Program-made: the position numbers and the translations under genes
Assembly (NCBI GenBank): GCA_030041095.1
Contig: JASHON010000073.1
Location: 1 to 64,000, forward strand
DNA length: 64,000 nt
Source: Terriglobia bacterium
GTDB lineage: Bacteria; Acidobacteriota; Terriglobia; UBA7540
Reading direction: 5' to 3'
Part shown: piece by piece, positions 33,588-45,542 of the stretch
Layout of the letters: the number at the start of each line of letters is the position of its first letter
How positions within the stretch are numbered: the first letter of the stretch is position 1
The notes under the pieces: model-generated
What the model was told of the DNA's origin: nothing
Databases searched by the model: none
What the model saw: only the letters and a program-made list of their open reading frames with translations

Positions 33588-33636
33588 TACGATCCGTGCC
33601 TCCTCTTGATACCTAAATTTGGTGGGTAACTCGCGC

Positions 33637-36237
33637 ATGCCAGCACCCAGGACACGAGCCACTCTGCCATCGTCATCAAGCGCTCAGGTCCACTTTGAGG
33701 ACTGCTGGGCGAAGACGACTCCAGATGGGAAGCCTGGCATCAGCGTCCGCGATCACTGCCTGAATGTCGGCTGTGTCGCAGAGGCCTTGGTCGGGTTACT
33801 GTCCTCCCCACTGCGAAATCTTCTGCCTCAGTCTGCGCCTGCTCTCGCTGCCTTGCACGACATCGGCAAAGTGTCACCGGGGTTTCAAGCCAAGTGCGAA
33901 GCTTGGCTGGCGGAACGCACACGTCGGGATGCAGCGCTGAGGGAAGGTTGGAGCTGCCACGAAGCCGACCACGCGAAGATCAGCCAGTTTACAGTACAGG
34001 AGCTGCTTGCTGGGTCTGGGGCTCAGGCCTGGGCGGCGGCGGTCGGCGCTCACCATGGGAGACTAAAGGGGGAGCGAGTTCGGGAGTGCGAACCGTGGTG
34101 GGAGGAAGAACGTATCCGACTGGCGGGTGAGCTCATCGAGGAATTCGGCGTGCTGCCCGGTGCGCTACCGAGCGAAGCAGCCCTCTGGTTCCTAGCTGGT
34201 CTTATTACGGTCTCCGACTGGATTGGCTCCGATGAGAGGTATTTTCGGCAGAACAGCACGGGCGCCATCCACCAAAAGCGAAGGGACGCAGAGCTTGCAC
34301 TGGCGGCGATTCATTGGAAAGCCTTCGAAGCGCGGCAGGGGCTGGGGTTCGCGGACTGCTTTCCCGAAATTACGACGGCCAACGCGCTGCAATTGGCGGC
34401 CGTCGAAGTTATTCAGGAGCCCGGCGTTTACTTGATCGAGGCGCCGATGGGCAGCGGCAAAACGGAGGCGGCACTCGGCGCTGCGTACAAGCTGATCGCG
34501 TCAAAGCAGGCGAGCGGCCTGTATTTTGCGTTGCCCACCAGAGCAGCTAGTAGCCGCATTCACCTGCGCATCCAGCCTTTTTTGGAAAATATTTCTGCTG
34601 ACCAGGCGTCCGTCCGGCTCGCCCACGGCGCATCCTGGCTTGTTGAATCCAACCCGCCGGCCCAATTGTCCCCCGCTATCGCCTCTGACAAAGAGGCGCG
34701 GGATCACGCCCGCTCCGGAAGCTCCTGGTTCGGGTCCGCCAAGCGGGCACTGCTGGAGCCGTTCGGCGTGGGCACGGTCGACCAAGCGCTGCTCGGCGTT
34801 GTTGCCGCCAAGCATTTCTTCGTCCGCCAGTTCAGCCTGGCCGGCAAGGTGGTGGTCTTAGATGAGGTGCACTCGTATGACGTTTACACCGGAACTCTGA
34901 TCGAAAAGTTGATAAAGCGTTTGCGGGAATTGCAATGCACGGTGATCATTTTGACGGCGACGCTAACGGAAACCCGGCGCCGTGAGCTCCTCCAAGTGGG
35001 TGACGCTGAGCTGTCCAGCGCCGCCTATCCCAGGATTTCAGGACTCGGGCGATCACTCGCCGAGCGCGCGTGCCAACCACCGCCTTCAAAAGCCGTTCAA
35101 ATAAGGAACATTTCCGGCGGACCGCCCGTGGAAGAGGTCATAGATCGCGCCAGCAAGGGGGACTGCGTACTGTGGATTCGTAACACGGTGGACGATGCGC
35201 AGGAAACTTACCGGGGGCTCCAGAGCGCTCGTGTCGAGGGTGGCCCGGAGGTCGCTGTGCTGCATTCCCGCTTCCCCTTCTTCCGCCGAGAGCAACTCGA
35301 GAGCGAATGGATGACGCGACTCGGTAGGGACGCGACGCAACGGCCCGCCGGATGCGTTTTGGTTTCAACCCAGATTGCCGAACAGAGTGTGGACATCGAC
35401 GCGGACCTGTTAGTTACTGACCTGGCCCCAACGGACATGCTGCTGCAACGCTTGGGCCGTTTATGGCGACACTCTAGAACGGCGCGTTCTTGCCTGCAAC
35501 CCGAGGGCTGGATTCGGACGCCGCGTTTGACCGGTAGTGCCATCCGAGGGGCTGGCGTGGAGGAGTTGTTGCAGGCCCTGGGGAAGAGCGCCCGCATCTA
35601 TGCGCCCTATGTTTTGCTGCGCTCGCTTGAACAGTGGCGTGACCTGCAATCGATTAGCCTGCCGGACGGCATCCGAGCCATTCTTGAGGCGACCTATGCT
35701 CATCCCGCCCAGGACGAGCCTGCTTCCTGGGTCGAACTGCGAAAGCAGTTGGAGCAGCGAAAGGAGAAATTGACCCGGCTGGCTCTAACGGCGAGTAATG
35801 TTTGGTCCAACCCGCCGCTGCCAGATGAAGAGGGCGTCCAAACCCGCTACAACACCTATCCGACAATGCAGGTACTTCTGGCGCGCGAGATTGCTCTCGC
35901 CGACAGTGATTCCGCGCGTGTCTGTCTACTGGACGGCAGCGTGGCGACAGCGCATGCCCGTCGCTGGAGCTTCGAGACGGCCAAAGCGATCCACCGCAAT
36001 CTCGTTCCTGTGCCACGCTGGGCGGTTGCGCAAAGTTTCGCCGCACCCCCGAACTGGCTGGTCAAGCACGTCACGGAGCCCGCCGTGGTCGGCGTGGTCG
36101 CACCCGACGGTAGAATTCGCGGGAGCAGCGGTGAAGAGCAAACTATGCTTTCCTACCATACGGACCAGGGTGTTATGATTATGCGCGACCGCCGGCCAGC
36201 GGCCCTCCAGGAGGAACCGGATGAATCTTACGACTGA
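33637..36237 (+). CDS. cas3: CRISPR-associated helicase/nuclease Cas3 (type I-E)
   Basis: An 866-residue protein of normal I-E length. The N-terminal HD nuclease domain has His40 in VRDHCLNVG, His74-Asp75 in ALHDIGKVSPGFQ and GAHHGRLKG. The superfamily 2 helicase has Walker A MGSGKT (Lys275), DEVH at 409-412, TATLTE and QIAEQSVDIDADLL. Cas3 is recruited by Cascade to the displaced DNA strand, nicks it and degrades it while moving 3' to 5'. The ATG at 33637 is chosen; TTG and GTG codons a few residues upstream are possible. First gene of the cas operon. Confidence 0.93.
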   Translation: MPAPRTRATLPSSSSAQVHFEDCWAKTTPDGKPGISVRDHCLNVGCVAEALVGLLSSPLRNLLPQSAPALAALHDIGKVSPGFQAKCEAWLAERTRRDAALREGWSCHEADHAKISQFTVQELLAGSGAQAWAAAVGAHHGRLKGERVRECEPWWEEERIRLAGELIEEFGVLPGALPSEAALWFLAGLITVSDWIGSDERYFRQNSTGAIHQKRRDAELALAAIHWKAFEARQGLGFADCFPEITTANALQLAAVEVIQEPGVYLIEAPMGSGKTEAALGAAYKLIASKQASGLYFALPTRAASSRIHLRIQPFLENISADQASVRLAHGASWLVESNPPAQLSPAIASDKEARDHARSGSSWFGSAKRALLEPFGVGTVDQALLGVVAAKHFFVRQFSLAGKVVVLDEVHSYDVYTGTLIEKLIKRLRELQCTVIILTATLTETRRRELLQVGDAELSSAAYPRISGLGRSLAERACQPPPSKAVQIRNISGGPPVEEVIDRASKGDCVLWIRNTVDDAQETYRGLQSARVEGGPEVAVLHSRFPFFRREQLESEWMTRLGRDATQRPAGCVLVSTQIAEQSVDIDADLLVTDLAPTDMLLQRLGRLWRHSRTARSCLQPEGWIRTPRLTGSAIRGAGVEELLQALGKSARIYAPYVLLRSLEQWRDLQSISLPDGIRAILEATYAHPAQDEPASWVELRKQLEQRKEKLTRLALTASNVWSNPPLPDEEGVQTRYNTYPTMQVLLAREIALADSDSARVCLLDGSVATAHARRWSFETAKAIHRNLVPVPRWAVAQSFAAPPNWLVKHVTEPAVVGVVAPDGRIRGSSGEEQTMLSYHTDQGVMIMRDRRPAALQEEPDESYD

Positions 36238-37768
36238 ACCCTGGATTCCAGTCGTCTGGAACGGTGGCGAAGCCGGACTTGTCAGCCTGCTTGAAGCGTT
36301 CGAGCGGGGTCACGAGATTCGCGACCTTGCCGTTCGCGCTCATGAGCGCATAGCCCTAATGCGGGTACTTATCTGCATCGCGCAAGCGGCGCTCGACGGC
36401 CCTGCAGACGAATATGACTGGAAGGCATGTTACGGCCGGATCGCGCCTTCAGCGATCGAGTATCTGCGCCGCTGGGAACGCTCCTTCGAGTTATTGGGTG
36501 ACGGCCAGCGATTCCTGCAGATTGCTAATCTGAAGAAGCCAGTGGCGAAATCAGGTGCGGACGAGGGGAATGCCGCCAGCAAGCTGGATCTGGCGCTGGC
36601 GACGGGCAACAATACAACGCTTTTCGACAACGCTGGCGGGTCAACCCGTGCTTTTACGCCTGCCGATCTGGCCCGGATGCTGACTACGTTTCAATGTTTT
36701 TCTCCCGGGGGCCGCATCGGAGTGGCGCTCTGGGACGGTGAGGAAACGCCGGGCAAGGGATCGAGCGAACACGCGCCTTGCTTGGCCGGCGGAATGCTGC
36801 ACGCGCTGCGTCGAGGCGAGCGCCTAATGACTTCCCTACATGGAAACCTAATGACGAAGCGGCAGGCCGAGCAGTTCTACGCACCCAGCTCTTGGGGAAG
36901 GCCGGTTTGGGAAATGATGCCGCAGCGACTGGCCGATGCGGAAGCTGTCCAGAACGCGGTTGGCACCTATTTGGGTCGCCTGGTTCCACTGGCGCGGGCC
37001 GTTTGGCTCGCGGATGGAGGTCAGTCACTGATCCTAGGCAACGGGCTTGCGTATGATTCCTACGACAAAACCGGGTGGCGAGAGCCCTCGGCTACAGTCG
37101 TCGTCCGCACCGTTAAGGGCGCATCGCAGCGGGTGCTGTTGCCCGCTCGAGTCGAGAAGGCCGCCTGGCGCGAGTTGCATTCCCTAACCGTCAAGGCGGC
37201 AGGCGACAAGCCTGGCGGCCCCGCGGCGCTCGAGCATCTCTCTGACGAGGCTTTTGATCTTTGGGTGGGCGCCCTTGTGTCGAACAAGGCGAAGCCTGTG
37301 GACGCCATTGAGTCCGTTTTCCACATCCCTGCCCAGATGTTGAATGCACCGAGCCAGAGGGTGTACGAGGATGGTGTAAGGGTGGCGGAGACAAGCGAGT
37401 TTCGCCTGAAGCGGGCGGTCTCCGTCTATCACAAGGAGCTCGGTGACCATCTCGACCGCCCAGAGATGAAAATCCGCCGCCAGCAGATCCAGAGTGCAGC
37501 CGGGTCCCAGTTCTGGACCGGCGTCGAGCTGGCCGTACCACGCCTCCTTGAAGTGGCCGAAAACCCTGAGGAACTGGGGCTGCGTCCCCGGTGGCAGAAA
37601 ACGGACTGGGGCAAAGCGGTTCTTTCCGCGATGCGAGCCGCGTTCGAGCGCGCTTGCCCGCACGAAACGCCGCGCCAGATGCGCGCCTTCGCGTTGGGGC
37701 TGAAGGCGCTGTTCTCCGGGCCTGCTAATGAAGGGGCAGCGGAAGCCGAGGAGGAGGTTGAAGTATGA
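36221..37768 (+). CDS. cas8e: Cascade large subunit Cas8e (Cse1/CasA)
   Basis: A 515-residue protein opening with NLTTEPWIPV, the hallmark start of Cse1. Other family phrases include FLQIANLKKP and LLPARVEKAAWRELHSL. Cas8e recognises the PAM, opens the target DNA and recruits Cas3. The ATG lies 17 bases before the end of cas3, so translation is coupled. Its stop overlaps the cse2 start (ATGA at 37765-37768). Confidence 0.92.
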   Translation: MNLTTEPWIPVVWNGGEAGLVSLLEAFERGHEIRDLAVRAHERIALMRVLICIAQAALDGPADEYDWKACYGRIAPSAIEYLRRWERSFELLGDGQRFLQIANLKKPVAKSGADEGNAASKLDLALATGNNTTLFDNAGGSTRAFTPADLARMLTTFQCFSPGGRIGVALWDGEETPGKGSSEHAPCLAGGMLHALRRGERLMTSLHGNLMTKRQAEQFYAPSSWGRPVWEMMPQRLADAEAVQNAVGTYLGRLVPLARAVWLADGGQSLILGNGLAYDSYDKTGWREPSATVVVRTVKGASQRVLLPARVEKAAWRELHSLTVKAAGDKPGGPAALEHLSDEAFDLWVGALVSNKAKPVDAIESVFHIPAQMLNAPSQRVYEDGVRVAETSEFRLKRAVSVYHKELGDHLDRPEMKIRRQQIQSAAGSQFWTGVELAVPRLLEVAENPEELGLRPRWQKTDWGKAVLSAMRAAFERACPHETPRQMRAFALGLKALFSGPANEGAAEAEEEVEV

Positions 37769-38277
37769 GCCCAGGTGGGTCCGATCCGAAGAACGCCGCC
37801 CGACATCTGTTGGAATATCTGCGCGGGATGGCGAACGACCGCGGCGCCATGGCGGATCTTCGATGCGCGTTGAGCCCGAGCTCTGCCAAGCGGGCCCGCG
37901 CGTGGCCCCTGTTGGCGCGCGTGGGAGGCGTAGGCGATCCCCGTGTCGAAACTGTGGCCGGTTTGTTCGCCTGGCATCCGGAGGAAAGCAAGGACGGTAA
38001 TCTAGGAACCACCTGCCGGCGGCTCCGCGAGCAAAATGAGTCTTTCGACGCCCGCTTCCGCCGTTTGCTTTCCTGTGACCGCGATGAGATTTACTCACGA
38101 CTGCGGCCCGTCGTTTTAGCCGCAAGGCCCAGGGGAATTCCCATCAATTATGAGGAGCTTTTCGCGGACCTCTGCTACTGGAGCGGCAGGGTGAAGGAGC
38201 GCTGGGCGCGGGAATACTGGTGCGTTCCCGAGGGCGAGGAGTGCACGCCGCCCGGCGCATCGGGGGCTGTGGAATGA
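37765..38277 (+). CDS. cse2: Cascade small subunit Cse2 (CasB)
   Basis: A 170-residue, helical protein with Cse2 features: a basic first half (ALSPSSAKRARAWPLLARVG), FAWHPEESKDGNLGTTCRRL and SFDARFRRLLSCDRDE, then IPINYEELFADLCYWS. Two copies form the inner belly of Cascade and hold the displaced DNA strand. It overlaps both neighbours by four bases (ATGA at each end), showing a tightly packed operon. Confidence 0.9.
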   Translation: MSPGGSDPKNAARHLLEYLRGMANDRGAMADLRCALSPSSAKRARAWPLLARVGGVGDPRVETVAGLFAWHPEESKDGNLGTTCRRLREQNESFDARFRRLLSCDRDEIYSRLRPVVLAARPRGIPINYEELFADLCYWSGRVKERWAREYWCVPEGEECTPPGASGAVE

Positions 38278-38915
38278 CCTATCTCGCCCAGGTTGACCTA
38301 CCTTTTGACGCCGCTGCGAAACTCGATTTGCGCGACGCCTATGACTGGCATCAGGCGATTTGGAAAGCGTTCCCTGGCCGCGACGGCCAGAAGCGTGACT
38401 TTCTTACGCGGCTTGACCAGCGCAGGGAAGGGTTCCGGCTGCTGATGGTTTCGCAGATCGAGCCTCTCCGGCCCCCGTGGTGCCCGGAAGATAACTGGAA
38501 GGCCAAGCCGATTCCGGAAAGTTATTTCACGCGGAGTCGGTACCGGTTCCAGCTTTGTGCGAACCCGACCAAGAAGGTTGGCAAAGCAATGCCCGATGGC
38601 TCACTGACGAAAAACGGCCGGCGCGTTCCGCTGGCAAGGCGCGAGGAAGTTGTGGACTGGATTAAGCGAAAGGGCGGGCAGGGCGGCTTCGTCGTCGACG
38701 AAGTGACGCTTCGCACCTTCCCGCGTGGCCGCGAGTATTTTCAGAAGAGAGACAGGAACGGGAAAGCGGTCACTGGCCTGCACAGTGCAGTGGAGCTTGA
38801 GGGGGTGCTGAGTGTCACGGACCCGGCCCGGTTTTACGAAACCTTCAAGCGCGGCATCGGCTCGGCCAAAGCGTTTGGATTTGGCCTGCTGGTAATCGTC
38901 CCCATCGAGGTTTAG
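38274..38915 (+). CDS. cas6e: CRISPR RNA endonuclease Cas6e (CasE)
   Basis: A 213-residue RAMP protein. His26 in DAYDWHQAIWKAFP matches the catalytic histidine position of E. coli and Thermus Cas6e. A glycine-rich C-terminal loop typical of Cas6 is seen in FKRGIGSAKAFGFGLLVI. It cuts the precursor RNA at the base of each repeat hairpin and stays bound to the crRNA 3' end. The ATG at 38274 overlaps the cse2 stop. In the best-known I-E operons cas6e follows cas5e; here it directly follows cse2 and precedes an inserted toxin-antitoxin pair. Confidence 0.9.
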   Translation: MTYLAQVDLPFDAAAKLDLRDAYDWHQAIWKAFPGRDGQKRDFLTRLDQRREGFRLLMVSQIEPLRPPWCPEDNWKAKPIPESYFTRSRYRFQLCANPTKKVGKAMPDGSLTKNGRRVPLARREEVVDWIKRKGGQGGFVVDEVTLRTFPRGREYFQKRDRNGKAVTGLHSAVELEGVLSVTDPARFYETFKRGIGSAKAFGFGLLVIVPIEV

Positions 38916-38957
38916 CGCCGGCGTCCGCACCGGCAGATCGCAACGTGGAGGCATTCT

Positions 38958-39164
38958 ATGGCCACTCTGGATGATCTCGTTGATCAACTTCCTCCGGAAC
39001 TTCAGCGCGAGGTGGAAGATTTCGCCAAGTTTCTGCTTGAAACGCGCGCACAGCGCAAGGGTGGCAAGCTCAGCCTGGACTGGGCGGGCGCCTTGTCGGA
39101 GTTTAGCGGGCAGTTCACGTCCCTCGATCTTCAGAAAAAGGCGCTCGAATGGTGGGGGGATTGA
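38958..39164 (+). CDS. DUF2281-type antitoxin
   Basis: A 68-residue protein with LDDLVDQLPPELQREVEDFAKFL, the DUF2281 pattern of small antitoxins (VapB-like) that pair with PIN toxins, followed by a tryptophan-containing tail (LSLDWAGALSEF and LEWWGD) of the type that wraps the toxin. A GGAGG site lies a few bases before the ATG. The gene sits 42 bases after cas6e, and its TGA overlaps the toxin ATG (TGATG at 39162-39166). It is encoded on the same strand as the cas genes. Confidence 0.82.
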   Translation: MATLDDLVDQLPPELQREVEDFAKFLLETRAQRKGGKLSLDWAGALSEFSGQFTSLDLQKKALEWWGD

Positions 39165-39571
39165 TGCAGTTCCTTGTGGACACCAACGTTTGGCTCGAGT
39201 TGTTGCTCAACCAGGAGCGCGCTGAAGAGGTCCGGCGATTGTTTGGGAAGTATGAGGGTTCGGAGTTCGCGTTGACAGAATTCTCGCTGTACTCGATCGG
39301 AATTGTCCTTACGCGCTTAAATAAGGACGATGCGCTTGCCCGGTTCGTCGCTGACGCGCTGGAGCGGGCGGGGACCGGGCTGGTTCGGCTGCACCCGGCT
39401 GACCTTGGCCGGCTGCTTGAGGTGCGAAGGCGGTTCAGACTGGATTTTGACGATGCGTATCAATACGTGGCCTCCGAAAAACACGGCCTCACGTTGCTGA
39501 GTTTCGATGCAGATTTCGACCGTACCGAACGACGCCGTAAGACCCCGGCGATGGTTGCCCCAAAGGCCTGA
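39164..39571 (+). CDS. vapC: PIN-domain toxin (VapC-like ribonuclease)
   Basis: A 135-residue PIN-domain protein with the expected acid cluster: Asp in FLVDTNVWLE, Glu in ALTEFSLYSIG and paired Asp in RLDFDDAYQYV and LLSFDADFDR. VapC toxins cut tRNA or rRNA with Mg2+. Translation appears coupled to the DUF2281 antitoxin. A 58-base gap with its own AGGAGGG site leads to cas7e, so the pair is a complete cassette inserted between cas6e and cas7e without breaking either. Confidence 0.82.
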   Translation: MQFLVDTNVWLELLLNQERAEEVRRLFGKYEGSEFALTEFSLYSIGIVLTRLNKDDALARFVADALERAGTGLVRLHPADLGRLLEVRRRFRLDFDDAYQYVASEKHGLTLLSFDADFDRTERRRKTPAMVAPKA

Positions 39572-39629
39572 CACGGATCTCGCGCCGTGCCCGATCCCAG
39601 CGAATTTCAAGAACTAGGAGGGAAGTGCC

Positions 39630-40730
39630 ATGAAACTCATCGAGCTGCACATCCTGCAATCTTTTCCCGTCTCGTGCCTCAATCGTGATGACGTGGGAGC
39701 GCCCAAGACGGCCGTCTTCGGCGGTGTGACCAGGGCGCGCATTTCCAGCCAGTGCCTGAAGCGCGCCATCCGGCTGCAGGCGAAAGAGCTATGTCCGGAA
39801 TTGTACGCTGGCGAGCGCAGCAAGCTCATCGTGCGCCCGATTGCCGAGGCCGCCGAGCGGCACGGCGCTCCGCCGGACAGGGCCCTGGAAGTATCCAAAA
39901 AGTTTTGCAACGAGTTAGCCGTATTCGACGAGGGCTCATTCAAGAAGGATCCCAACGTCCTGAGGGTTAAAACTCTGATGTTTTTGTCCCCGGCGGAGCG
40001 CGAGCAGATCGGCAAAGAACTGGCCGCGATGCTCGGGGAGAGCAAGGACGCTAAGGCGCTGGAGAAGAAGATCAAGTCAGCGGCAGCGAAGGTCCGCGAA
40101 GCCAGACTGAAGGATGCGGCGGACATCGCCGTGTTCGGACGCATGGTGGCCAGCGATCACTCCCTCACGCTCGAGGGTGCGGCGATGTTCAGTCACGCGC
40201 TCTCAACTCACCGCGCGGATAACGACATAGATTTTTATACCGCTGTGGATGACCGCCAGCGTGAGGACCCCACGGTTGGGGAGGAAGACCGAGCGGGCAG
40301 CGGCATGATGGGGACGTTGGAGTTCACTTCTGCGGTTTATTACCGCTACGCCGGCCTGAACATGGGACTGCTGGAGGATGCTGACCATCTGGCCGCGCTT
40401 TCGCGGGAACAGCGCGACAAGGTGATTGATGCCTACCTCCGCGCCGCGGTACTCGCGGTTCCCGGCGCGCGGAAAAACTCCATGAACTCTCATACGCTGC
40501 CGGGCTACGTGCTGGGCCTCGTGAAGGATAAAGGCCAGCCGGTGCAACTGATCAACGCCTTCGAAAGGCCAATAGCTTCCCAAAACGGTTTGATGGACGA
40601 GTCGATCGCGCGGCTCAAGGCGCACCACTCGCAGTTGAAACAGACCTGGGGGATTCAGCCGGCGCTCGAGGTGGCCATCCCGGACCAGCCACTGGATGAG
40701 TTCTGTAAGGAGATCTTAAAGCATGTCTGA
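39630..40730 (+). CDS. cas7e: Cascade backbone subunit Cas7e (Cse4/CasC)
   Basis: A 366-residue RAMP protein opening with IELHILQSFPVSCLNRDDVG and GGVTRARISSQCLKRAIR, the strongly conserved start of CasC. Six copies form the crRNA-binding backbone of Cascade. GSGMMGTLEFTSAVYYRYAG and NSMNSHTLPGYVL are also typical. A strong AGGAGGG site lies before the ATG; since the gap after the toxin is only 58 bases, this gene probably depends on read-through or on a promoter inside the toxin-antitoxin cassette. Confidence 0.93.
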   Translation: MKLIELHILQSFPVSCLNRDDVGAPKTAVFGGVTRARISSQCLKRAIRLQAKELCPELYAGERSKLIVRPIAEAAERHGAPPDRALEVSKKFCNELAVFDEGSFKKDPNVLRVKTLMFLSPAEREQIGKELAAMLGESKDAKALEKKIKSAAAKVREARLKDAADIAVFGRMVASDHSLTLEGAAMFSHALSTHRADNDIDFYTAVDDRQREDPTVGEEDRAGSGMMGTLEFTSAVYYRYAGLNMGLLEDADHLAALSREQRDKVIDAYLRAAVLAVPGARKNSMNSHTLPGYVLGLVKDKGQPVQLINAFERPIASQNGLMDESIARLKAHHSQLKQTWGIQPALEVAIPDQPLDEFCKEILKHV

Positions 40731-41451
40731 GACCGCCTGTCTCGCATTGTTGCTGGATGGCCCGCTGCAATCGTGGGGCTTTTCCAGCCGCTTTCAGCGC
40801 CGCACCACGGCACTCTATCCCACCAAGAGCGGCGTGATCGGCCTGATTTGTGCCGCCATGGGCCTGGCGAAGGGCTCCCAGCAAGAACGCGCGTTGCTGC
40901 CGCAGCTCGCGAAGATGACCATGACCAGCGCGGCCATCCCGCGCCGGCGCGGCCATCCCTGGCCGGGCGGTGTGGAGGATTTATCAGTACGCCGCCTCGA
41001 GGATTATCACACCGTGCTCGGCACACGCCGAGCCAGCGGAGCCATGAACCCGGATGCAGTGGTGAGCCGCCGTCAGTATCTGCAGGAAGCTTGCTTCGGC
41101 GTGATTTTGGAGGGGCGGAGCGACCTGGTGGGGCGCGCCGCCGAAGGCCTGAAGGACCCGGTATGGGGCGTGTGGCTGGGCCGGAAATGCTGCATTCCGT
41201 CGCAGCCGGTATTTGTGGAATGTTGCGATTCTTTCGGCGGCGCCTGGAAAGCGATCCTGCGGGCCTGCCATCTCAGCGAAGATGCCGAATTGGTTACATT
41301 CTCCAGGGTCGAGGATTTGAAGGAGTTCACTGAGGGTGACTCGGTGAGCGACCTACCGGTAAGCTTCGGCGACGGCACGAGCAGCGGACCTGACAAACGC
41401 CAGTTCGCAGTCCGCCGTATTGCCTTAAGACCCGGCATGCGTCAGTGGTAA
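40723..41451 (+). CDS. cas5e: Cascade subunit Cas5e (CasD)
   Basis: A 242-residue RAMP protein with LALLLDGPLQSWGFSSRFQR and PTKSGVIGLICAAMGL, the CasD signature. Cas5e caps the 5' handle of the crRNA and contacts Cas8e. The tail around RRYLQEACFGVILEG is less conserved. It overlaps cas7e by eight bases and ends 15 bases before cas1, which keeps the operon compact. Confidence 0.92.
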   Translation: MSETACLALLLDGPLQSWGFSSRFQRRTTALYPTKSGVIGLICAAMGLAKGSQQERALLPQLAKMTMTSAAIPRRRGHPWPGGVEDLSVRRLEDYHTVLGTRRASGAMNPDAVVSRRQYLQEACFGVILEGRSDLVGRAAEGLKDPVWGVWLGRKCCIPSQPVFVECCDSFGGAWKAILRACHLSEDAELVTFSRVEDLKEFTEGDSVSDLPVSFGDGTSSGPDKRQFAVRRIALRPGMRQW

Positions 41452-41466
41452 CTCACCCTCATTCCA

Positions 41467-42300
41467 ATGCCAATTTTCGAGAAACCTCCACTGGAGACTC
41501 TGGCGCCGGCTAAAGACCGCTGGACGCCGATCTATCTGGAGCACGGGCGCCTCGAAGTCGATGATTCCAGCATCAAGTGGATCGGTGCCGATGGGCTGGT
41601 CTACCGGCTGCCGGTCGCCACGCTTTCAGCCGTGCTGCTGGGGCCGGGTACCACGGTCACGCACGCAGCCATGAAAGCCTGTGCCGACTCCAATACCCCC
41701 GTCTGCTGGATCGGCGAGGATGGTATGCGCTTTTACGCCTTTGGCATCACCCCTAACCACGATAACTCCATGCCCCGCAAACACGCTGCGGCGTGGGCCG
41801 ACAAGAAGAAACGGGCCGAGATCGCTCGCCGCATGTTCGTCCAGCGATTTCCCGGCGTCGATGTTCAGGCCCACTCCGTCACCGAGTTACGCGGCATGGA
41901 AGGATTGCGTGTGCGTGCCCGTTACGCCGAGCTTGGCCAGCAACTCGGCGTTACCTGGAAAGGCCGAAATTACGACAAGTCCAACTGGAACCTGGCTGAC
42001 AACATCAACCGCGCCCTTTCTGCCGCCAACGCGAGCCTGTACGCTGTCTGCGCCGCCGTCACTTGCTCCCTGGGTTATCTGCCCGCGCTGGGGTTCGTTC
42101 ACGACGGCGGCACCTTGCCATTTATTTACGACGTGGCGGACTTATACAAAGACACCACAAGCTTCCCGGCGGCATTTCAGAGTATTAGGCAAGCTTCGGA
42201 TGACCAGGGTGAACTGGCGCGCGCGCTGCTCAAAGATCGCATCGAGCAGGAACGACTTCTGCAGAGAATTCCAAAAGACTTGGAGGAACTGTTGGCGTGA
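41467..42300 (+). CDS. cas1: CRISPR integrase Cas1 (type I-E)
   Basis: A 277-residue Cas1 of the I-E class. The metal ligands expected from E. coli Cas1 are present at Glu145 (in RGMEGLRVR), His212 (in GFVHDGGTL) and Asp225 (in [10 protein letters not shown]). Cas1 and Cas2 together capture prespacers and insert them at the leader end of the array. Its stop overlaps the cas2 GTG start (GTGA at 42297-42300). A 141-base stretch of this gene, encoding residues 186-232, recurs as a diverged fragment at 48325-48465. Confidence 0.94.
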   Translation: MPIFEKPPLETLAPAKDRWTPIYLEHGRLEVDDSSIKWIGADGLVYRLPVATLSAVLLGPGTTVTHAAMKACADSNTPVCWIGEDGMRFYAFGITPNHDNSMPRKHAAAWADKKKRAEIARRMFVQRFPGVDVQAHSVTELRGMEGLRVRARYAELGQQLGVTWKGRNYDKSNWNLADNINRALSAANASLYAVCAAVTCSLGYLPALGFVHDGGTLPFIYDVADLYKDTTSFPAAFQSIRQASDDQGELARALLKDRIEQERLLQRIPKDLEELLA

Positions 42301-42626
42301 CGGTCATCATTGCGAATGAAACGCCCGATGCCATTCGCGGTATGTTGAAGCGCTGGTTTATCGAGCCGCGCCCAAACGTCTTCGTGGGAACGCTGAATCG
42401 GCGCACCCATGAAAAGACACTTGAATACATCAAACGCAACGCCGGCGGTATTGGGCTCCTCGTCGTAAGCAGCTACCCTAATTGCCAGGGTTTCAAGATT
42501 GAAACCCTAGGCCCCGTGGACCGGAAAGGGGTGGAAGTTTCTGGGCTCTGGATGGTGGCCGAGAAGTGGGAAGAACCAGCGCCTGAGGCAATACAGTCCG
42601 ATTCTAGTCCTGACATCGCGGGTTAA
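42297..42626 (+). CDS. cas2: CRISPR adaptation protein Cas2 (type I-E, CasCD-like)
   Basis: A 109-residue Cas2e: [38 protein letters not shown] and [12 protein letters not shown] follow the E. coli protein. It begins with GTG, overlapping the cas1 stop. The C-terminal ~18 residues are an extra acidic and proline-rich tail, and there is no DnaQ exonuclease fusion. Only 17 bases separate the stop from the first CRISPR repeat. An inverted repeat AGGGTTTC/GAAACCCT (42487-42508) lies inside the gene. Confidence 0.92.
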
Positions 42627-42643: not shown

Positions 42644-45542
42644 GTTTTCCCCACACGCGTGGGGATGGTCCGGTGAGGCTCGATTCGATCGGCCGGGTTA
42701 TAGAGTTTTCCCCACACGCGTGGGGATGGTCCGTCTGCGGGGTTTAGGTGGAACCCTGCCGCGAAGTTTTCCCCACACGCGTGGGGATGGTCCGACGTAC
42801 AAGCCGTTGATTTGATTGAAATTATTCGGTTTTCCCCACACGCGTGGGGATGGTCCGTCTACCCACAAACTGAAAATGAGCATTCGGAGGTTTTCCCCAC
42901 ACGCGTGGGGATGGTCCGGCTCACGGCGGTAGAGGCTGAGGCATGGGTAAGTTTTCCCCACACGCGTGGGGATGGTCCCGTCAATGTGTAAGCTAGCAAG
43001 CTCACCGCCATAGTTTTCCCCACACGCGTGGGGATGGTCCGAGAACCCACCACACTGCCGCACGAGAAACAAAGTTTTCCCCACACGCGTGGGGATGGTC
43101 CGTTCCAGGCTTTCCTCGCGCATGCACTCATCGAGTTTTCCCCACACGCGTGGGGATGGTCCGCTCCAAGCGCGAGTCCTAAACGCTTCGCGGAAGTTTT
43201 CCCCACACGCGTGGGGATGGTCCAGCATTGTCCCGCTATGATCGTGAGGCAGCGGCGTTTTCCCCACACGCGTGGGGATGGTCCGGGATAGTGGGGGTGA
43301 GACTCACTGACAGGACTGTTTTCCCCACACGCGTGGGGATGGTCCGCGGAGCAAAACTGAGTGTGGGTGACCGGGTTCGTTTTCCCCACACGCGTGGGGA
43401 TGGTCCGGTCTCCCCGATGCGCGTGGCGGGCTTGCAGCGGTTTTCCCCACACGCGTGGGGATGGTCCGGGCAGGAGCAACGCGGTTGGCCTACGGGCTTG
43501 GTTTTCCCCACACGCGTGGGGATGGTCCGATTGTGATGGGCAGAGGCGTCATCGATGAGTCGTTTTCCCCACACGCGTGGGGATGGTCCGCCTGTCAATC
43601 GTGGGTTTTGGCGCTGGACTCCGTTTTCCCCACACGCGTGGGGATGGTCCGTGTATTCTTGCGCGTATGGTTGGCGTGATTGCGTTTTCCCCACACGCGT
43701 GGGGATGGTCCGCTAGTTTTGATGCACGCGGGCAGACACCCACAGTTTTCCCCACACGCGTGGGGATGGTCCGTGGTATCGACCGACGCCGGGACTCTAT
43801 GGTGTGTTTTCCCCACACGCGTGGGGATGGTCCGGGTTTGTGGTTTTGTACTGTTCGCGGCTTGGGGTTTTCCCCACACGCGTGGGGATGGTCCGTCTAC
43901 CGGGCCTAGAATAGCTCCGCACATCGGGTTTTCCCCACACGCGTGGGGATGGTCCGCCGTTGATTTGATTAGAGTTAGCCGGATTAGGGTTTTCCCCACA
44001 CGCGTGGGGATGGTCCGCCTCGAACCCCAGCACCTACAATCGACGAACGGTTTTCCCCACACGCGTGGGGATGGTCCGGTGCCGTCCATTACCGCCTCAA
44101 ACTCCGCGAGGTTTTCCCCACACGCGTGGGGATGGTCCGGTTCACTACAATGTGGCATTGGCCCATATTGTGTTTTCCCCACACGCGTGGGGATGGTCCG
44201 GGTGTTGCACTGGCGATGAACCGCGCGATAATGTTTTCCCCACACGCGTGGGGATGGTCCGGCCTGCCCCAATAACCGCTCACCCCGAAAATGGTTTTCC
44301 CCACACGCGTGGGGATGGTCCGCGGACACGTTATTGATGTTGACCCGGATAAAAGTTTTCCCCACACGCGTGGGGATGGTCCGCGGTATTTGCAGCTCTA
44401 GTATATAGTTATGCGGTTTTCCCCACACGCGTGGGGATGGTCCGAGCTTGCATTTTGCAAATTCAAGCCTGTGTACGTTTTCCCCACACGCGTGGGGATG
44501 GTCCGCGCGCTACCAGACTGAGCTACACCCGATAAATGTTTTCCCCACACGCGTGGGGATGGTCCGAAATCCCGCGCGAGAGACCCACTGATCCGCCCGT
44601 TTTCCCCACACGCGTGGGGATGGTCCGCTCTCACCGCCTCATCCTCGGCCGCTGCTTTCGTTTTCCCCACACGCGTGGGGATGGTCCGGTTCCTCCCTTA
44701 CTTCCTCGTTTGGTGCGGCAGTTTTCCCCACACGCGTGGGGATGGTCCGTGCAGGCTCTTTGTCATTCCCTCTCCGGCACTGTTTTCCCCACACGCGTGG
44801 GGATGGTCCGGTCCAAGGTGGCTCGTCCGTGGGTTCTGAGGTGTTTTCCCCACACGCGTGGGGATGGTCCGTCTGCAGAGCCGTCCGCAGCTCGTCGAAA
44901 CTAGTTTTCCCCACACGCGTGGGGATGGTCCGATTTTCTGCGCCCTTTCAAAAACCAGGTCGAGGTTTTCCCCACACGCGTGGGGATGGTCCGGCACTAG
45001 AGAACCACGCGTTCGAAAAAGCGCGGTTTTCCCCACACGCGTGGGGATGGTCCGCACGGCGGCTGAAACTTCAATATTTCACCATCGTTTTCCCCACACG
45101 CGTGGGGATGGTCCGAATCGCTTCAGAACGTTCAGATTCTCTCGGTGGTTTTCCCCACACGCGTGGGGATGGTCCGTGCAGGCCAGAGAACTTGGGAAGC
45201 CGCAGAAAGTTTTCCCCACACGCGTGGGGATGGTCCGTTACAATCTCACCAGAAAAAGCAATTCTCATTGTTTTCCCCACACGCGTGGGGATGGTCCGAG
45301 AGGAGCTCGCATTTTTCACAGGAGGTCGATGTTTTCCCCACACGCGTGGGGATGGTCCGGAGGTCGATTATCATGCTACGACTAGACCTCGGTTTTCCCC
45401 ACACGCGTGGGGATGGTCCGCTGAACCAGCAGCAGACGTACGAACGCTTGCTGTTTTCCCCACACGCGTGGGGATGGTCCGATCTCCCGGATCCGCTCGA
45501 CGGCTTTGCGCGGGTTTTCCCCACACGCGTGGGGATGGTCCG
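42644..45542 (+). CRISPR. Type I-E CRISPR array, 48 repeats and 47 spacers
   Basis: Forty-eight 29-base repeats begin GTTTTCCCC, contain the stem-loop CCCCACACGCGTGGGG and end ATGGTCCG. The 61-base period is regular. All spacers are 32 bases except spacer 3 (34) and spacer 6 (33). I read every repeat as identical apart from base 29, which is C in repeat 6 (42979) and A in repeat 10 (43224). Cas6e cleavage would leave an eight-base AUGGUCCG 5' handle, parallel to AUAAACCG in E. coli, so transcription runs plus-strand from the cas2 side. Even the last repeat (45514-45542) is intact. Confidence 0.98.
44506..44537 (+). other. Spacer 31 matches the 5' end of a tRNA gene (reverse orientation)
   Basis: Read on the minus strand, spacer 31 contains GGGTGTAGCTCAGTCTGGTA followed by GCGCG, the acceptor-end and D-arm pattern of tRNA genes, with six non-tRNA bases before it. 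The acquired DNA thus covered the junction between upstream sequence and a tRNA 5' end. The source may be a phage-encoded tRNA, an element integrated at a tRNA, or the host chromosome. Confidence 0.65.

Follow-up and report, generated by a model that had tools for sequence, protein, structure and literature searches.

Toxin–antitoxin (TA) pairs of type II, including pairs with a PIN toxin, were reported in type I cas loci in 2013, the examples being a PhdYeFM and PIN pair in Nostoc sp. PCC 7107 and Fic with an antitoxin in Geobacter (PMC3936711). CreTA, an RNA-based TA, lies inside the cas operon between Cascade genes (PMC9458426, PMC12737573), and it has been suggested that TA modules could safeguard cas genes (PMC10910872). 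Toxicity and neutralisation have been shown in E. coli for several pairs of a PIN toxin and a DUF2281 antitoxin, namely a marine VapC/DUF2281 pair (PMC12654330) and sll1092-ssl2138 and slr8014-ssr8013 of Synechocystis (PMC4963859). Another PIN TA of Synechocystis, sll1225-ssl2420, is found inside the hoxEFUYH hydrogenase operon, whose stabilisation by the pair has only been proposed (PMC4963859).

The locus described here lies in the window, a stretch of 64,000 nucleotides from a Terriglobia bacterium of the phylum Acidobacteriota (genome G000, contig C54), in which a DUF2281-PIN pair is positioned within a complete type I-E operon. It resembles the pairs reported in 2013 in being flanked by type I cas genes, but its antitoxin is DUF2281 instead of PhdYeFM, and its site, between cas6e and cas7e, is inside the I-E Cascade block (PMC3936711). 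The marine and Synechocystis pairs combine the same toxin and antitoxin families, but they were not described in a cas operon, and in the marine pair the two genes stand in reverse order (PMC12654330, PMC4963859); sll1225-ssl2420 is likewise a PIN TA that sits within a functional operon unrelated to it, although both the operon and the antitoxin are different; and CreTA is also a TA inside a cas operon and its possible guard, but is RNA-based and needs Cascade and an ectopic repeat (PMC9458426). An earlier note on this DNA, made from the sequence without database searches, had considered a protein pair with a PIN toxin inside Cascade genes to be much less familiar than CreTA, a view outdated by the 2013 report. 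No description of a DUF2281-PIN pair between Cascade genes was found in the literature searched, in which subscription papers are thinly covered. The cassette is a clean new example of the TA passengers already reported in CRISPR operons, with an odd lineage history.

The DUF2281-PIN cassette in the type I-E operon

The operon is encoded on the plus strand in the order cas3-cse1-cse2-cas6e-(TA)-cas7e-cas5e-cas1e-cas2e and is followed by an array of 48 repeats (Table 1). Coordinates and Pfam matches agree on an intact, same-strand DUF2281 and PIN pair between cas6e and cas7e, both of which are unbroken and full length by their TIGRFAM models; together with the proven TA function of DUF2281-PIN pairs elsewhere, this supports the initial reading of an antitoxin and a PIN toxin inserted without damage to any gene.

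Table 1. Features of the type I-E operon and CRISPR array in the window
Feature	Coordinates	Strand	Evidence
cas3, type I-E nuclease-helicase; start codon uncertain	33619..36237	+	PF18019, PF22590, TIGR01587
cse1/cas8e	36221..37768	+	PF09481, TIGR02547
cse2/cas11e	37765..38277	+	PF09485, TIGR02548
cas6e, full length, upstream of cassette	38274..38915	+	PF08798, TIGR01907 5.9e-37; 71% identical to G004 Cas6e
Junction cas6e-DUF2281, 42 bp, RBS GGAGG 38947-38951	38916..38957	+	sequence
DUF2281 antitoxin gene, 68 aa	38958..39164	+	PF10047 1.5e-13, over cut-off
PIN (VapC-like) toxin gene, 135 aa	39164..39571	+	PF01850 1.2e-17, over cut-off
Junction PIN-cas7e, 58 bp, RBS AGGAGGG 39616-39622 for cas7e	39572..39629	+	sequence
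cas7e, full length, downstream of cassette	39630..40730	+	PF09344, TIGR01869 2.4e-79; 80% identical to G004
cas5e	40723..41451	+	TIGR01868
cas1e	41467..42300	+	TIGR03638
cas2e	42297..42626	+	PF09707, TIGR01873
CRISPR array, 48 copies of GTTTTCCCCACACGCGTGGGGATGGTCCG, period 61	42644..45542	+	repeat search

The antitoxin gene lies directly upstream of the PIN gene, and the two are coupled by a TGATG overlap in which the antitoxin stop and the PIN start meet at 39164; judging from the sequence, this ATG is the probable PIN start, a longer alternative at 39149 being less likely. Shine-Dalgarno-like sequences precede both DUF2281 and cas7e. The window protein retains the acidic active-site residues of PIN proteins at D6, E39, D96/D97 and D115/D117, and its AlphaFold model (pLDDT 95.9) matches the fold of the VapC and FitB toxins with a TM of about 0.8. 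No sequence homologue of solved structure was recovered by profile search, VapC and FitB being matched by fold alone, and the window genes score below the cut-offs of the NCBIfam VapB/VapC equivalog models; since the Pfam families are matched whereas these equivalogs are not, the pair is referred to as VapBC-like and not as VapBC proper. Comparison with the orthologous pair of a congener, G001, gave a dN/dS of 0.11 for DUF2281 and of 0.1-0.2 across both genes, with dS near saturation, and both genes are, as judged from these ratios, under purifying selection.

A consensus scan of 38.7-39.8 kb, which covered terminators and promoters of the sigma-70-like type, yielded nothing beyond a chance match, and a cassette with its own promoter or terminator was set aside on this ground. 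The cassette is presumably co-transcribed with the cas operon. In both of its junctions (38916-38957 and 39572-39629), GC-rich inverted repeats of 5 bp enclose a loop of 8 nt (GCCGG/CCGGC and CACGG/CCGTG); the repeats are missing from the empty site of G004 and may be due to chance, and only the downstream one is present in the predicted minimum-energy fold. Their interpretation as insertion scars or as Cas6e sites was rejected, neither being separable from chance in GC-rich DNA.

Empty site and other type I-E operons

G004, which belongs to the same family as the window genome and is its closest relative with this operon, carries the genes in an identical order without the cassette (Cas7e 80% and Cas1 88% identical), and its whole cas6e-cas7e junction measures 31 bp. 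The order cse2-cas6e-cas7e-cas5e also occurs without the pair in four further operons (G219, G189, G301 and G080), which indicates that the gene order with cas6e ahead of cas7e predates the cassette. The earlier note had held that the cassette would be a neutral hitchhiker if close relatives had the same operon without it and if its deletion affected neither growth nor operon stability; such a relative is found in G004. Among the 27 annotated I-E loci besides that of the window, a single other intact TA-like pair was recovered, in G135 (L135, contig C68, 9894-10549). This pair consists of an RHH-like small gene, a putative antitoxin read from the sequence by eye without a Pfam match, and a PIN gene (PF01850, 9.6e-10); it is located between cas6e and cas1e of an I-E operon, and the PIN stop overlaps the cas1 start.

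The 28 genomes with I-E systems contain from 0 to 61 PIN genes each (18 in the window genome). Under uniform placement, 0.75 PIN genes are expected in the 28 I-E operons and 2 were seen (P = 0.17), so that PIN frequency alone demands no special link to CRISPR; when only non-disruptive intergenic positions are counted, by fractions that were assumed, 0.25 PIN pairs are expected against the 2 seen (P = 0.027). PIN density is the chance baseline against which claims of TA-CRISPR linkage should be measured.

Distribution of the family in other genomes

Eighty relatives of the PIN protein were found among 85,000 genomes, in many phyla; a DUF2281 relative is present in the same locus in 80/80 cases, and immediately upstream of PIN wherever this was measured, so the window pair is not a chance pair of ORFs. 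The surroundings of 91 other loci (those of the 80 genomes and 11 further), with flanks of up to 10 kb and some shorter, were examined with tblastn, a search for arrays and custom HMMs, from which cas genes of remote subtypes might escape detection; cas1, cas2, cas4, cas7, other I-E or I-G genes or a CRISPR array were found near none of them. One weak match to a Cas3-type helicase was obtained, at L079, and array-like matches at L033, L082, L086, L087 and L115 turned out to be other tandem repeats. Within the genus of the window genome, both copies (2/2, in the window genome and G001) are in cas loci, versus 0/91 elsewhere. In 6 of the 55 usable family loci, the pair is wedged tightly between same-strand genes, such as those for an Fe-S protein and a deacetylase or for a glycosyltransferase and wzz, and entering operons is therefore a habit of the DUF2281-PIN family. 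A plasmid or phage origin was rejected, as no match was obtained at 1e-5 in PLSDB or a phage collection, nor in viral contigs.

The orthologous pair and other TA pairs in type I-G loci

The only orthologue of the pair in G001, a genome of the same genus, is found at 1601-2222 of L011 (contig C28), within a type I-G cas locus with the order cas3g, Cas3-extension, DUF2281, PIN, cas2, cas4-cas1. The PIN gene of this copy is frameshifted near 2030, which may reflect decay or an assembly error. The window and G001 PIN genes form an exclusive clade (support 100/97), and no similarity was found between the DNA flanking the two pairs. The window genome has an I-G locus of its own (L035, contig C132, 3978-4695, minus strand), in which HEPN (HepT; PF01934, 5e-27) and MNT genes are positioned between csb2 and cas2. 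Either the lineage was ancestrally placed in a cas locus and subsequently moved, or it entered cas loci on two separate occasions; both histories are unlikely for randomly placed genes, a consideration that concerns two copies and was noticed post hoc.

In a non-random survey of 18 Cas4-Cas1-fusion loci in the phylum, HigBA was found in two and a marginal HicAB in one, besides the pairs of G000 and G001. In two I-G loci, cas4-cas1 and csb2 are separated by a HigB-HigA pair that is encoded on the opposite strand (L148, 9964-10569, and L149, 9516-10145, the latter assigned by similarity to the former), and the marginal HicA/HicB-like pair lies on the minus strand between cas2 and cas4-cas1 (L157, 7511-7923).

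Retention of the cassette

The cassette is probably a selfish passenger, co-transcribed with the operon and retained through its own addictiveness, and as an incidental effect it would make central Cascade deletions costly. An ordinary DUF2281-PIN type II module would have inserted harmlessly between cas6e and cas7e and would now be part of the cas transcript, from which DUF2281 would be translated ahead of PIN, whose translation would be coupled to it at the TGATG, and the antitoxin would bind the PIN RNase and neutralise it. Retention would be due mainly to the addiction of the module itself, as deletion would leave the stable toxin behind while the short-lived antitoxin is lost; deletions reaching central Cascade genes would be penalised as a side effect, with no dedicated CRISPR function. 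This reading agrees with the empty site of G004 and the four other same-order operons that lack the cassette, the lack of detected cas genes near the 91 family loci, several of which have the pair between unrelated genes, the chance expectation from PIN density, the low dN/dS of both genes between congeners and the lack of an internal promoter or terminator, and it has precedents in the DUF2281-PIN pairs proven to be TA (PMC12654330, PMC4963859) and in the PIN TA of the hox operon (PMC4963859). Weighing against it are the I-G location of the only orthologue in G001 and its exclusive clade with the window gene, since two cas placements would be unlikely if random, together with the different TA, HEPN-MNT, in the I-G locus of the window genome and the excess over expectation at non-disruptive positions, for which the fractions were assumed. 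Even as a passenger, the cassette provides a natural experiment: related genomes have the same operon with and without it, and two members of one genus have a single TA lineage in different cas subtypes. The coupling of TA and CRISPR, long proposed, thereby becomes open to test.

The main rival is a dedicated guard of CRISPR-Cas, a pair selected in cas operons that would kill or arrest cells losing or silencing the operon, as CreTA does by RNA, and that would move between subtypes, with other TA types substituting elsewhere. The addiction to CRISPR-Cas put forward in the earlier note was of this kind, and it stays hypothetical in view of the relative with an empty site, the family copies outside CRISPR loci and a PIN density that alone predicts some PIN genes in I-E operons; the location of the congener's only orthologue in another cas locus keeps the idea alive, and a cas-guarding role is possible, if unlikely. 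It would account for one lineage in the I-E and I-G loci of a single genus, for HEPN-MNT in the I-G locus of the window genome, for the RHH-like and PIN pair of G135 and for HigBA in two I-G loci, and it accords with the published safeguard suggestion (PMC10910872), but five relatives that share the I-E order lack the pair, as do almost all of the phylum's I-E operons, the family occurs elsewhere without CRISPR linkage, PIN density nearly explains the frequency, and the two HigBA pairs run in the opposite orientation. Addiction would, moreover, act only against changes by which the antitoxin is lost or silenced; a point mutation would go unsensed in cas3, cse1, cse2 or cas6e, and polar insertions upstream would lower toxin and antitoxin together, so that protection of the operon would be at best partial. 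Should a guard role be real, CreTA would have a counterpart made of protein, and the persistence of costly immune operons would become easier to explain. That the DUF2281-PIN lineage of this genus is now a CRISPR-dedicated protein addiction or fail-safe module, which tracks cas operons across subtypes (I-G in one species and I-E in the other) and has been replaced by HEPN-MNT in a vacated I-G locus, is quite doubtful.

Dormancy coupled to immunity is distinctly improbable. Here, infection would shut down host transcription or activate proteases, DUF2281 would be depleted, and the freed PIN toxin would arrest the cell while Cascade works or fails, with co-transcription matching the toxin dose to Cascade; this fits a published hypothesis (PMC3506569) and the shared transcript layout, and the same interpretation has been given to TA pairs from type I cas loci (PMC3936711), but neither a sensor nor a regulatory link can be seen, family members outside cas loci do not require coupling of this kind, and the layout adds little over a TA elsewhere in a genome with 18 PIN genes. 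Even less probable is a decaying, non-functional insertion, to which the frameshift in the G001 orthologue could point if it is not an assembly error, since in the window both frames are open, the active-site residues are kept and dN/dS is 0.1-0.2. A CreTA-like module, with the toxin under repression by Cascade and a crRNA-like RNA, is scarcely credible despite the position of CreTA between Cascade genes of cas loci (PMC9458426, PMC12737573), as the window antitoxin is a protein gene and the suggested control by Cascade gained no support from a search for degenerate CRISPR repeats across the cassette and the cas genes, which recovered no ectopic repeat, the best match in or beside the cassette having 13 mismatches of 29 versus 10-13 in shuffled sequence.

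Minor observations

In a survey of Acidobacteriota that ignored kinship, Cas1 was present in 8 of the 9 other genomes with this PIN family and in 131 of a phylum sample of 396. A short RhuM-like fragment, identified by eye without Pfam support, lies on the minus strand between cse2 and cse1 of the I-E operon of G219 (L129, 4776-5024). In an I-G locus (L147, 9756-11018), a TnpB-like gene apparently splits the Cas4 part of cas4-cas1, as read by eye.
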